From NCBI GenBank assembly GCA_031276015.1, contig JAISNX010000140.1:1-40609 (forward strand): a stretch of DNA of 40,609 bases, in the 5' to 3' direction. This document shows positions 36,159-40,609 of the stretch, in pieces. The stretch is from Azoarcus sp. (GTDB lineage: Bacteria; Pseudomonadota; Gammaproteobacteria; Burkholderiales; Rhodocyclaceae). The position numbers and the translations under genes were made by a program. The stretch's first letter is position 1. Every line of letters begins with the position of its first letter. The notes below the pieces were generated by a model. That model was given only the letters and a program-made list of their open reading frames with translations. It was not told where the DNA came from and did not search any database.

Positions 36159-37193
36159 CTACATTCCCCTCCCTGCCGCCGCACCTGAGGCGGCGGGGAG
36201 GTGGGGCGGTGGTAATGGAAAGACTTGGGTTTCCTTCCTCCGATTTTCTTTCCTTCGATCACTATGGCGTCGGTCAGATCGGGGTGGCGGCAAAACCGGA
36301 GTTGCTGCCTCCCATCGGCGCTCGAAAACTGCGGTGATCGGATAAAGCAGGGTGGTGCCGAACCGTCTTTTGCCCTTTTTGGAGTATCTTGATAGAAGGT
36401 AAGCGGATGTCTTGTGCACATCGTACCCATCACGGTAATGCTGCACCCAGGCATAGTTGTTGTCCAGGGAGACTATTTTCCAGATGGGCTTGAAATCATC
36501 ATAATATCTCAACATTATTTTTACCCCGTTCTCCGCCAGTTTCTTACAACGATCAACGCATTCAGCATGGTCTTCCTGGAATTTTTCTAGTTTTGCTCCG
36601 CTGCTGTTCGCCCTTTCCTTGAATAAGGGTGATGCTGGGTTCAGCAAGAGAATCAGGACTATTCCCTTAAAATATGCCAGCTTCTCATGCAAGGGAGAAC
36701 CAGGTTTTCCGAAGGTATCCCAGCCTGTAACACCCAGAATGCGAAGGATTTTCGGATCGGTTCCGTCGTCCCTGATTCTCTCTGCAAAATCCTTCCATGC
36801 TTCGGTAAGGCTGGTATGGCTGGCCTTATGGGTCTTGTCTTCATCATACCTTATAGAGCGATGAATTCCCATGTCGTCAAGTATGCCGATTTTGCGTCGT
36901 GCCTCTTCAAGACTACGTTCAAGCTCGGCGATACGTTTATGATAGCGCTTCTTCAATAAAATAAGGATTAGCGTAAATATTCCGAACACCACGAAAAACA
37001 ACACGGTAACGCTGATGGATTGAAAAAGAAATCCTGCAAGCGCTGCAAATGGTGCTCCAACTTTCAGCACGGTTGTTGCGTAAGAATTAATCGTCTCAGC
37101 GATAAGCTTCCCGATCTCTGCGCGAGTCTTTTGGATTCCTACACGTTTCTCCTCCTCCGTCCTACCTTCTTCTTTGGCAGTATTCTGCTCCAT
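36159..37193 (-). CDS. two-TM membrane protein with C-terminal soluble domain (possible DUF5919/PLD-like fold), low-GC accessory gene, unusual C-terminal tail
   Basis: 344 aa; TM pair APFAALAGFLFQSISVTVLFFVVFGIFTLILILL; coiled coil; PKILRILGVTGWDTFGKPGSPLHEKLAYFKGIVLILLLNPASPLFKERANSS...; SD GGAGGA 5 nt before ATG; AT-richer than neighbours. Confidence 0.7.
   Translation of the reverse strand: MEQNTAKEEGRTEEEKRVGIQKTRAEIGKLIAETINSYATTVLKVGAPFAALAGFLFQSISVTVLFFVVFGIFTLILILLKKRYHKRIAELERSLEEARRKIGILDDMGIHRSIRYDEDKTHKASHTSLTEAWKDFAERIRDDGTDPKILRILGVTGWDTFGKPGSPLHEKLAYFKGIVLILLLNPASPLFKERANSSGAKLEKFQEDHAECVDRCKKLAENGVKIMLRYYDDFKPIWKIVSLDNNYAWVQHYRDGYDVHKTSAYLLSRYSKKGKRRFGTTLLYPITAVFERRWEAATPVLPPPRSDRRHSDRRKENRRKETQVFPLPPPHLPAASGAAAGRGM
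36168..36201 (+). terminator. strong GC-rich hairpin downstream of fabI
   Basis: CCTCCCTGCCGCC / GGCGGCGGGGAGG, 13-bp stem with one non-Watson-Crick pair, 8-nt loop, 20 nt after fabI stop; no clear U-tract. Confidence 0.5.
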
Positions 37194-37271
37194 GTATTCC
37201 TCCCCCCCATATCCGTTCTGCTACCTGGCAGGATGAAAGTCTTTATGTGTTTCATTCATCCGCTTTTATTT

Positions 37272-37583
37272 TCATCCTCCCCCATACATTTTCGCCATTT
37301 TCGCCATTTCCGCCGATTCTGCCTCTTCATCTTTCGACGTCATAATTTCATCATCGGGCGGCTCATAGGCTTCTTCAAGTTCATTATGCAGAATCAGATA
37401 TTCCCCAAGTTCATCACGCAGAATCCGCTCGTTAGTCATGACCATCTGTACCTGTGGTTCCTGTTCCTTCGCGTGAAGCTTGCCTATTTTGTCAGCAATG
37501 CCATCTACAGGTATCAGTATGCTCACCACTATCGCAGCCAATATGGCAATCAAGCTTGTCGCACTGAACGTAGCCAAGTCCAT
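37272..37583 (-). CDS. small single-TM protein with acidic, charged C-terminal tail
   Basis: MDLATFSATSLIAILAAIVVSILIPVDGIADKIGKLHAKEQEPQVQMVMTNERILRDELGEYLILHNELEEAYEPPDDEIMTSKDEEAESAEMAKMAKMYGGG; SD GGAGGGG just upstream of ATG at 37583. Confidence 0.65.
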   Translation of the reverse strand: MDLATFSATSLIAILAAIVVSILIPVDGIADKIGKLHAKEQEPQVQMVMTNERILRDELGEYLILHNELEEAYEPPDDEIMTSKDEEAESAEMAKMAKMYGGG

Positions 37584-37671
37584 CGCACCCCTCCAACAAA
37601 AAAGTTCATCAACACGCAGGCCCTGCAACCCTGCAACCAGACCTGTCCGTAGCGGTCGAGTAGCGGACACT

Positions 37672-37701
37672 ATCATACTGACCATACGAAGTGCAAGTCA
37701 A
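37672..37701 (-). promoter_or_regulatory. sigma70-like promoter for the two-gene membrane module
   Basis: On the minus strand TTGACT - 18 nt - TATGAT, about 90 nt upstream of the 37583 start codon. Confidence 0.5.
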
Positions 37702-37920
37702 GTGCATAGATTGCGCGCGATTTGCTCGCATTCTCGTATGGGTTCTGCTTGCCAACGGACAGAAAAATATCCATGATCGAGGCCGCATCCCTGTGTGGGA
37801 TCACCGCAACGATCTTTTTGATCAACTGGTTGTGACTTGTCTGGATGATAGTTCGGCTGAGAAATTTCTTTGCTATTCCAAGACGGCACAGGACTGTCTG
37901 AACAGGCAACGGCAATTTCG

Positions 37921-39135
37921 ATGAATCACGCTCCCTCTACACTCGACATCCTGTCTCTCGTCATCCATGGCGACGTGGATGCTGCGCATCCGGAACTGAA
38001 CGACACGGCGCTGGCTCCGGCCATTCACACGGCTTCCACCTACAGCGCCCGGACTTCCGGCGAATTCGCCGCCATGGCGAACGCACCGCGTCACCCGCGC
38101 TACTACGCCCGCTACGGCAATCCCACGCAGGCGCGTTGCGAACGGCTCATTGCCCGCCTGGAAAACGCGGAATCCGCGCTGTTGTGCGCCTCCGGCATGG
38201 GCGCAATGAGCACATCCCTGCTCTCGCTGGTGAAAGCGGGCGAGCACATCGTGGCGCAAACCGCGCATTACATGGGCACGGCCCAACTCCTGACCGATCT
38301 CCTGCCGGGCATGGGGGTGGAAGTCACGCTCGTCGACCAGCGCGACGCCGAAGCTTTTTGCAAGGCCGCGCGCCCGAACACCAAGCTGATGGTCGTGGAG
38401 ACGCCCTCCAATCCAACCCTGGCGCTCACCGACCTTGCCGCCGTCGCCCGTTTCGCGCGCGAACGCGGCATCCTCACCCTGGCCGACAACACCTTCGCCT
38501 CGCCCATCAACCAGCGCCCGCGCGATTTCGGCATCGACCTCGTTCTGCACAGCGCCACCAAATACCTGGGCGGGCACAGCGACCTGATTGCGGGTGTCGT
38601 CTGCGGCGACGCCGACATCATCGAGAAAATCTGGAAACGCTCGATCATGCTGGGCACGAATGTAAGCCCCTTCACCGCTTTCCTGCTCCTGCGCGGCCTG
38701 CGCACCCTGCCGTTGAGGGTCGCGCGCCAGAACGAAAACGCGCTGGCGCTGGCGCGCTTCCTGCAAGAACATCCGGCCATCGCGCAAGTGCATTATCCGG
38801 CGCTGGAAACCCATCCGCAGCACGCGCTTTTCCAGCGCCAGATGCGGCACGGCGGCGGCGTGCTGAGCGCCGAATTCAAGGGCGGCGCGCAGACGGGGTA
38901 CGAAACGGCGAAACGCTTCGCCGCCTCGCTCAAGCTCGCCCGGCACGCGGTGAGCCTGGGCGGCGTCGAAACGCTGGTGGTGCATGCGGCCTCCATGTGG
39001 GAAGCCTCGCTCAGCCCCGAAAACATGCAAAAAGCCGGGATTTCCCCCACGCTCGTGCGCATCGCCGCCGGGCTGGAAAACGTCGCCGACCTGCGCGCGG
39101 ACATGACGATGGCGCTGGAGGCGGCGGCGGGATAG
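37921..39135 (+). CDS. trans-sulfuration family PLP-dependent enzyme (cystathionine gamma-synthase / methionine gamma-lyase type)
   Basis: YARYGNPTQARCERLIARLENAESALLCASGMGAMSTSLLSLVKAGEHIVA..., VETPSNPTLALTDLAAVA, LADNTFASPINQRPRDFGIDLVLHSATKYLGGHSDLIAG. Confidence 0.92.
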   Translation: MNHAPSTLDILSLVIHGDVDAAHPELNDTALAPAIHTASTYSARTSGEFAAMANAPRHPRYYARYGNPTQARCERLIARLENAESALLCASGMGAMSTSLLSLVKAGEHIVAQTAHYMGTAQLLTDLLPGMGVEVTLVDQRDAEAFCKAARPNTKLMVVETPSNPTLALTDLAAVARFARERGILTLADNTFASPINQRPRDFGIDLVLHSATKYLGGHSDLIAGVVCGDADIIEKIWKRSIMLGTNVSPFTAFLLLRGLRTLPLRVARQNENALALARFLQEHPAIAQVHYPALETHPQHALFQRQMRHGGGVLSAEFKGGAQTGYETAKRFAASLKLARHAVSLGGVETLVVHAASMWEASLSPENMQKAGISPTLVRIAAGLENVADLRADMTMALEAAAG

Positions 39136-39171: not shown

Positions 39172-39330
39172 TTAGAGCAGATCAACAAATTGAAGCCCAA
39201 AGAGAACCGCCGTCATTGCGAGGCCCGAAGGGCCGTGGCAATCCAGTAAGCCGTGTGGATTGCCACGTCGCTTCGCTCCTCGCAATGACGATCAGTCTGA
39301 CATGAGCCTCATAAAGTTGATTTGCTCTAA
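39172..39330 (+). mobile_element. MITE-like element copy C (most intact)
   Basis: TTAGAGCAGATCAACAAATTGAAGCCCAAAGAGAACCGCCGTCATTGCGAG...CTCGCAATGACGATCAGTCTGACATGAGCCTCATAAAGTTGATTTGCTCTAA; 15-bp terminal inverted repeats with one mismatch. Confidence 0.85.
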
Positions 39331-39349: not shown

Positions 39350-39567
39350 GAAAATGCGGCATCTGGCAGATCGAGGACTGGCCCAACCGGCCAACTGCCT
39401 GATCGACGGCTTCGAGGGCAAACTCACCAGCAGCAAGTGGGCGGCCATCGCCAAGTGCTCGCCCGATAACCGCGCTACGCGACATCACGCAATTGCTGGA
39501 ACTGGATGTGCTGGAGAAGTCGCCCGGTGGTGGGCGCAGCACGGGCTACGAACTGGCGGAGCGATGA
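39350..39567 (+). pseudogene. Fic-family protein remnant (N-terminal fragment fused to C-terminal winged helix, catalytic core deleted, frameshifted)
   Basis: One frame gives IWQIEDWPN (Fic/DUF4172-like N-terminus); another gives LIDGFEGKLTSSKWAAIAKCSPD; after one extra A the frame shifts to ALRDITQLLELDVLEKSPGGGRSTGYELAER*, the typical C-terminal Fic winged helix. No HPFxxGNGR core. Confidence 0.7.
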
Positions 39568-40277
39568 GTGATTACAATTTGTCCGGCGAGCGGTTCGTTC
39601 GCGGCATTTGGGAGGAAACAAGGCATGCGGCATCTTTTTTATCGAAACCTGGCGAGCGTGATCCTGGCGGTTTTCCTCGTGGGCGGAAACGCGGCTTGCA
39701 CTGGGAGGACGGGCATTTCGACGTTTCCGGGTTTCGGGAGGGCGACATTATTTTCCAGTCCTCCCTTTCCTCGCAGAGCAAGGCGATTGAATTGGCGACG
39801 CATTCCCGTTATTCCCACTGCGGCATTGTCCTGAAGATCGGGAAACAGTTTTATGTCTACGAAGCCGTCGGGCCTGTGCGTTATCTGCCGTTGCAGGAAT
39901 GGATCGCGCTCGGCAAGGGTGGCCGGTACGCGCTCAAGAGGCTGAAAAACGCCGATACCATTCTGACGGCGGAAGCGATCGGCAAAATCAGGAAGGCCGG
40001 AGAATACTTCAAGGGCAAGCCTTACGATTCTACTTTTGGCTGGGGCGATGAACGTATTTATTGTTCCGAACTCGTCCATAAAATCTATTCCCGCGCCCTG
40101 GGACTGGAAGTGGGGAAAATCCGTCGACTTGGCGACTTCGATTTGACACACCCGTCCGTGCGGGAAGAATTGCGCGAACGCTATGGGGAAAACATTCCGC
40201 TGAACGAACCTGTTGTTTCGCCGCAGGATGTTTTTGAAAGCGATCTGCTTGTTTCGGTCGGGGGGAATGGCAGATAG
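39564..40277 (+). CDS. YiiX/YebB-like NlpC/P60-superfamily hydrolase, likely N-terminally frameshifted (native start probably 39625)
   Basis: FREGDIIFQSSLSSQSKAIELATHSRYSHCGIVLKIGKQFYVYEAVGPVRYLPLQEWIALGKGGRYALKRLK..., YDSTFGWGDERIYCSELVHKIY. SD GGAGGA (39611) and signal peptide MRHLFYRNLASVILAVFLVGGNAAC lie in another frame. Confidence 0.75.
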   Translation: MSDYNLSGERFVRGIWEETRHAASFLSKPGERDPGGFPRGRKRGLHWEDGHFDVSGFREGDIIFQSSLSSQSKAIELATHSRYSHCGIVLKIGKQFYVYEAVGPVRYLPLQEWIALGKGGRYALKRLKNADTILTAEAIGKIRKAGEYFKGKPYDSTFGWGDERIYCSELVHKIYSRALGLEVGKIRRLGDFDLTHPSVREELRERYGENIPLNEPVVSPQDVFESDLLVSVGGNGR

Positions 40278-40409: not shown

Positions 40410-40481
40410 CCATTGCGAGGCGCGCCAGCGCCGTGGCAATCCATGCGGCCTGTGGATTGCCGCGCTTCGCTCGCAATGACG
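40410..40481. repeat. core palindromic repeat (copy G)
   Basis: CCATTGCGAGGCGCGCCAGCGCCGTGGCAATCCATGCGGCCTGTGGATTGCCGCGCTTCGCTCGCAATGACG. Confidence 0.75.
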
Positions 40482-40513
40482 AGGGATTGAGGCATTGCGG
40501 CACCATCCATGCC

Positions 40514-40550
40514 CGTCATTGCGAGGCGCGCAGTGCCGTGGCAATCCGTT
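40514..40550. repeat. half core repeat (copy H)
   Basis: CGTCATTGCGAGGCGCGCAGTGCCGTGGCAATCCG; only the left arm is present. Confidence 0.6.
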
Positions 40551-40609
40551 CGTCGTACCGGCTTGCTTTCCGACACGTTTCCCCGTGGTCGCACTGGCGA
40601 CTGACTCAA

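Follow-up and report, generated by a model that had tools for sequence, protein, structure and literature searches.

A TM-anchored protein with a predicted PLD-type fold and an adjoining small TM protein: a probable phage-response or phage-exclusion module in Azoarcus sp.

Among the eukaryotic proteins with a PLD fold, MitoPLD (Zucchini) is catalytically active and carries the HKD motif; FAM83 and MITD1 have no active HKD site and are scaffold-type PLD folds. DUF5919 (PF19319) is a soluble domain, and for His-less PLD-fold domains of this type we found no assigned function, nor any mention of DUF5919 in the literature searched. Two further systems resemble the locus described here in their architecture. 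Csx23 has TM helices at its N-terminus and, at its C-terminus, a ligand-binding domain located in the cytoplasm (PMC11014256), and Panoptes (OptS-OptE) is a compact two-gene system whose TM effector OptE carries a soluble sensor domain (PMC12657218).

We analysed a window of 40,609 nucleotides, which is positions 1 to 40,609 of contig JAISNX010000140.1 from Azoarcus sp. It contains two genes, termed P1 and P2, between fabI and a trans-sulfuration gene. The features of the locus are listed below.

36199..37917 (about 1.72 kb), no strand: inserted segment, 47.9% GC, missing from a sister genome
36163..36203, no strand: ancestral fabI terminator-type hairpin, which now also encodes the last residues of P2
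36159..37193, minus strand: P2, 344 aa, with a TM hairpin, a charged helix and a C-terminal predicted pseudo-PLD domain
36294..36836, minus strand: predicted pseudo-PLD domain of P2 (residues 120-300), from AF2, Foldseek and a motif survey
36945..37079, minus strand: TM hairpin of P2 (about residues 39-83), from hydropathy and long helices in the AF2 model
37194..37271, minus strand: P1-P2 spacer, with an imperfect inverted repeat (37227-37238 / 37270-37281)
37272..37583, minus strand: P1, 103 aa, with one N-terminal TM helix and an acidic C-terminal tail, from ORF, SD and hydropathy
37672..37701, minus strand: candidate promoter TTGACT-18-TATGAT, from a consensus match alone (10/12, best of the region)

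The initial annotation had described two co-oriented ORFs at 37583-37272 (103 aa) and 37193-36159 (344 aa), and both are present, each behind the SD it had named (GGAGGGG-tgcg-ATG for P1 and GGAGGA-atac-ATG for P2). The frame of P1 is open further upstream, to 37685; the ATG at 37583 was taken as the start because the SD favours it. The proposed promoter was recovered at 37701-37672 on the minus strand by consensus match, and promoter-like matches as a class barely exceed chance (4 found, 1.9 expected). The P1-P2 spacer contains neither a U-run nor a terminator, and its fold is not clearly superior to those of shuffled sequences. P1 displays a single strong hydropathy peak at about residues 6-29, followed by a tail with 19 D/E and 8 K/R, in agreement with the one TM helix and charged acidic tail read before. 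P2 shows the TM pair and the soluble domain seen at that stage, the latter of alpha/beta type, with a charged helix between them. The membrane localisation claimed for the pair is thus supported by sequence.

Structure prediction and a Foldseek search of the C-terminal domain of P2 returned a PLD-superfamily fold. The domain as modelled by AF2 (pTM 0.77; element order H-E-H-H-E-H-H-E-E-E-E-H) matched FAM83A, FAM83B, MitoPLD, MITD1, NucT, PssA and PLD3 with probabilities of 0.9-1.0, and members of the PLD superfamily made up most of the leading PDB matches (TMq up to 0.58). Of five domain models, a single one was good, and the pLDDT of full-length P2 was low (63). The PLD alpha/beta fold is to be read as a prediction. 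The DUF1669 domain of FAM83, the C-terminal PLD-like domain of MITD1 and MitoPLD are among the best structural matches, but they are only 12-16% identical to P2. Sequence profiles found no match in the PDB, and a Foldseek search against viral structures gave one weak PLD match and nothing else. APOBEC3G scores in the PDB search were at chance level (E >= 0.026), and a Pfam match to SPC12 lay below the cut-off and covered the TM hairpin; both were rejected.

The HxKx4D motif of active PLD superfamily enzymes is absent from P2, in which the site equivalent to HKD reads PIWKIVSLD, without the His. Across the family, this position reads P[IVFL][WL][KNSR], and the His is absent in all of the ~35 distinct homologue motifs read, with the register set by motif reading and not by structural superposition. 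Because the HKD His is missing from P2 and from every homologue motif read, we regard P2 as a pseudo-PLD protein, whose domain is probably a catalytically dead binding module.

The soluble domain had been likened to DUF5919 or to PLD-like domains. The latter assignment stands, on the basis of the predicted structure; the former holds at sub-threshold level in relatives, but not in P2, which gave no match to DUF5919 up to E 10 and, unlike DUF5919, is TM-anchored. Members of the P2 family reached E 0.0023 and 0.031, and a TIR-like fusion 0.0014; relatives scored 14.5 and 18.9 bits, and none attained the curated cut-off (23.5 bits). When 61 relatives and another 200 genomes from the phylum were searched with PF19319, one sub-threshold match emerged, and the controls were silent too. 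Csx23 differs from P2 in having its own cA4-binding fold, and P2 has no adjoining CRISPR or cyclase gene. The partner in Panoptes is the mCpol nucleotide cyclase, whereas the partner gene of P2 encodes a small TM protein. Csx23 and OptE serve as precedents for effectors that join TM and soluble sensor parts, not as relatives of P2. Neither P1 nor P2 matched an anti-phage family of PADLOC 2.0.0 at E<=10 or had an accepted match in Pfam, NCBIfam, PADLOC or PHROGs; the initial annotation had not recognised the pair as a described system.

The segment at 36199-37917 has a GC content of 47.9%, compared to 63.7% in the remaining window, and all 345 equal-size tiles elsewhere in the window are richer in GC (minimum 56.0%). 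The GC3 values of the two ORFs (0.49/0.51) contrast with 0.80-0.87 for fabI, the trans-sulfuration gene and an ABC-binding-protein gene. The segment is therefore foreign in composition and, as had been claimed, AT-richer than the core genes on both sides. In a sister genome of the same genus (G015, FabI 97% identical), the trans-sulfuration gene directly follows fabI (locus L036), which represents an empty site; the alignment with the window ends at 36198 and picks up again near 37918-37942. Given this empty site, we infer that ~1.7 kb, holding the P1 and P2 genes and no others, was gained between fabI and the trans-sulfuration gene. Gain in Azoarcus sp. is favoured over loss in the sister genome because the pair is absent from the other same-genus genomes searched (P1 in 0/21; P2 in none). 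The patchy presence, the empty site, GC and GC3 support the horizontal acquisition suggested at the outset. No integrase was found in the inserted segment, and no clear case of a target duplication or of terminal repeats at its ends. The host is a 2.3-Mb draft genome (73% complete) with one copy of the locus.

Homology searches uncovered ~57 distinct sequences related to P2. Relatives of its C-terminal domain occur in 11/199 genomes of the family, 23/398 of the order, 4/369 of the class and 1/399 of the phylum, counts that include the genome itself and stem from different query profiles. In named genomes, there are 23 loci, mostly in Thiobacillus, Sulfuricella and Gallionella, and one Azospirillum megaplasmid carries a relative (L006). 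The homologues inspected by eye or hydropathy have two N-terminal hydrophobic segments each. Most of the ~57 homologues (Thiobacillus, Sulfuricella, Gallionella and others) are standalone proteins of two TM segments plus the domain, without a small partner. For the wider family, no gene neighbour turned out to be conserved beyond close species. In one genome (G030), the standalone family is present as two close copies (L002 and L005); as judged by eye, each is flanked by a sulfite-dehydrogenase/cytochrome pair on one side and a methyltransferase gene on the other.

The two nearest relatives of P2, on the Azospirillum megaplasmid and in a Burkholderiales genome (G1106; L075/L081), have an unannotated single-TM ORF of 59-61 aa 55-57 bp upstream of the P2-like gene:

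L006, 7409-7597: small ORF, 61 aa, one TM helix, from the upstream DNA
L081, 7724-7904: small ORF, 59 aa, one TM helix, from the upstream DNA

In a FastTree analysis of 55 domains, the sequences from the window, L006 and L075 grouped with a support of 0.993. A small, SD-preceded single-TM ORF within 200 bp upstream was found in 3/3 members of this clade (at 55-78 bp) and in 3/54 other homologues, a contrast with a chance probability of about 7e-4; at least one of the three ORFs outside the clade looks, by eye, like an unrelated BON-type lipoprotein. A search for P1 homologues by sequence in the genus, 100 relatives, plasmids, phages and four profile libraries was negative, and one viral match (L085) was dismissed as chance, as it falls inside an unrelated phage protein. 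The three small proteins have in common a TM helix followed by an I-x-x-K-[IV] stretch. Their pairwise sequence similarity is not significant, and we therefore claim only a shared layout. The pair thus recurs elsewhere, by position and not by P1 sequence. A small TM partner can evidently escape every sequence search and yet reveal itself by position.

In both relatives, a terminator-like hairpin separates the small ORF from the P2-like gene (L006 7625-7650 and L081 7929-7961), with its U-run ending at the start codon and the only SD-like bases of the P2-like gene in its 3' arm. Taken as a class, terminator-like matches occur in L006 at about the rate seen in shuffled sequences and in L081 at a somewhat higher one; the weight of the hairpins lies, therefore, in their shared position. 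Such a hairpin at the start codon might act as an expression switch.

Since most other P2 homologues stand alone, the family as a whole may have another function. One could imagine a chromosomal-type scaffold, in which standalone 2TM-pseudo-PLD proteins act in envelope remodelling or stress by binding lipids or proteins, the window pair being a horizontally moved version with an incidental P1. That most of the ~57 homologues are standalone proteins of Burkholderiales, lacking a small partner and conserved neighbours, and that FAM83 and MITD1 are structural neighbours, speaks for this explanation; we nevertheless consider it rather unlikely, as the subgroup of the window appears, from its three members, to be distinct, patchily distributed, located in mobile settings and always accompanied by a small TM ORF.

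These settings differ between the two relatives. The Azospirillum gene directly follows a prophage endolysin gene (phrog_1224, E 3e-65), with other phage families nearby, and its DNA is likewise GC-poor (44%, compared to 65% in the surroundings). The Burkholderiales copy resides in a defence island (L081, 790-9919) with a PDC-M05A/B pair (E 2e-85 and 5e-62), an Old-like ATPase-TOPRIM (E 2e-25), transposases/IS elements and an inovirus-type Zot remnant. Thus, one of the two subgroup relatives is in a defence island and the other in a prophage-like setting, an association that rests on these two loci, and the window copy sits between core genes. The layout is thus found again in two unrelated bacteria, each time next to defence or phage genes, and on that basis P1-P2 probably represents a hitherto undescribed module for phage response or phage exclusion, of hypothetical function.

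The same neighbours would suit a prophage moron for superinfection exclusion, in which inner-membrane proteins made constitutively would stop the DNA of related phages from entering or being injected in a receptor-linked manner, without a death effector. All proteins concerned are membrane proteins, P1 is small, and the two relatives adjoin an endolysin gene and a Zot remnant. We judge this explanation unlikely, since no recognisable copy was found in 50,697 phage genome records or, in scans with two alignments, among IMG/VR contigs, and since, to our knowledge, small exclusion proteins typically lack a soluble pseudo-PLD domain.

Small single-TM and 2TM proteins next to an endolysin gene are also reminiscent of a membrane toxin-antitoxin or lysis-type pair, one protein being a pore-forming, holin-like toxin and the other its inhibitor. 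Holin/lysis profiles gave sub-threshold scores alone for the TM region (PF07332 E 0.054; phrog_920 E 0.22), however, which are near chance; the conserved soluble domain would be left unexplained, and terminator-like hairpins part the genes in two loci. This makes such a pair very unlikely.

Our preferred reading, to which we assign a probability of about 0.42 and which is thus tentative, is a mobile two-gene membrane module acting as a membrane-anchored sensor/effector in phage response or exclusion. It fits best because it accommodates the TM hairpin, the charged helix, the soluble non-enzymatic domain, the small TM partner and the mobile or defence settings. From these traits, we infer a P1-P2 interaction, ligand sensing, a membrane effect and a role against phages. 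P2 would be anchored by its TM hairpin, with the dead PLD-fold domain most likely in the cytoplasm, where it could serve as a sensor that binds a ligand or a protein. P1, a putative regulatory or pore partner, would either restrain P2 as a brake or join it as a co-subunit. When a phage enters or the envelope is disturbed, the pseudo-PLD domain may alter the assembly of P2, whose TM part would then prevent entry or perturb the inner membrane. A fuller version, namely an undescribed mobile immune module in which a dead PLD-fold infection sensor gates a TM-hairpin effector, restrained by a fast-evolving small TM partner and encoded behind a terminator in two of three loci, is conceivable though doubtful. 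P1-P2 represents a minimal two-gene construct for testing.

A related domain occurs in another architecture. At L089 (1318-2307, minus strand), a TIR/nucleoside-deoxyribosyltransferase-like domain (PADLOC TIR effector, E 4e-6) takes the place of the TM hairpin and is fused to a DUF5919-like pseudo-PLD domain of the same class as that of P2 (hhalign probability 85%, E 7e-6). The fusion would fit, by analogy, the use of such a domain as a sensor module in immune effectors, and the presence of a DUF5919-type domain in both a TM-anchored mobile pair and a TIR-like fusion points to a sensor role for this fold in bacterial conflict systems. The L089 protein is itself a candidate single-gene immune effector. 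Another distant protein (L090) has a similar domain joined to another TM region.

Residues 333-344 of P2 (~12) are read from the pre-existing fabI terminator hairpin; the C-terminal tail is thus a junction product, and the window copy of P2 may perhaps be decaying. That the whole segment is decaying foreign DNA without present function, with P1 a chance ORF, is highly improbable: the tail, the single copy in a draft genome and the missing sequence homologues of P1 would agree with it, but the reading frame of P2 is intact and retains conserved residues of the fold, a strong SD precedes each of the two ORFs, and the small TM ORF recurs by position in two unrelated loci.

Elsewhere in the window, at 39210-39290 and 40426-40552, a dispersed palindromic repeat (CCGTCATTGCGAGG...CCGTGGCAATCC) with 35-nt arms that are 89% complementary, present in at least three places, resembles a mobile REP/MITE-type element. 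The centre of an ORF at 39354-40277 on the plus strand looks, by eye, like YiiX/YebB-type permuted NlpC/P60 hydrolases.
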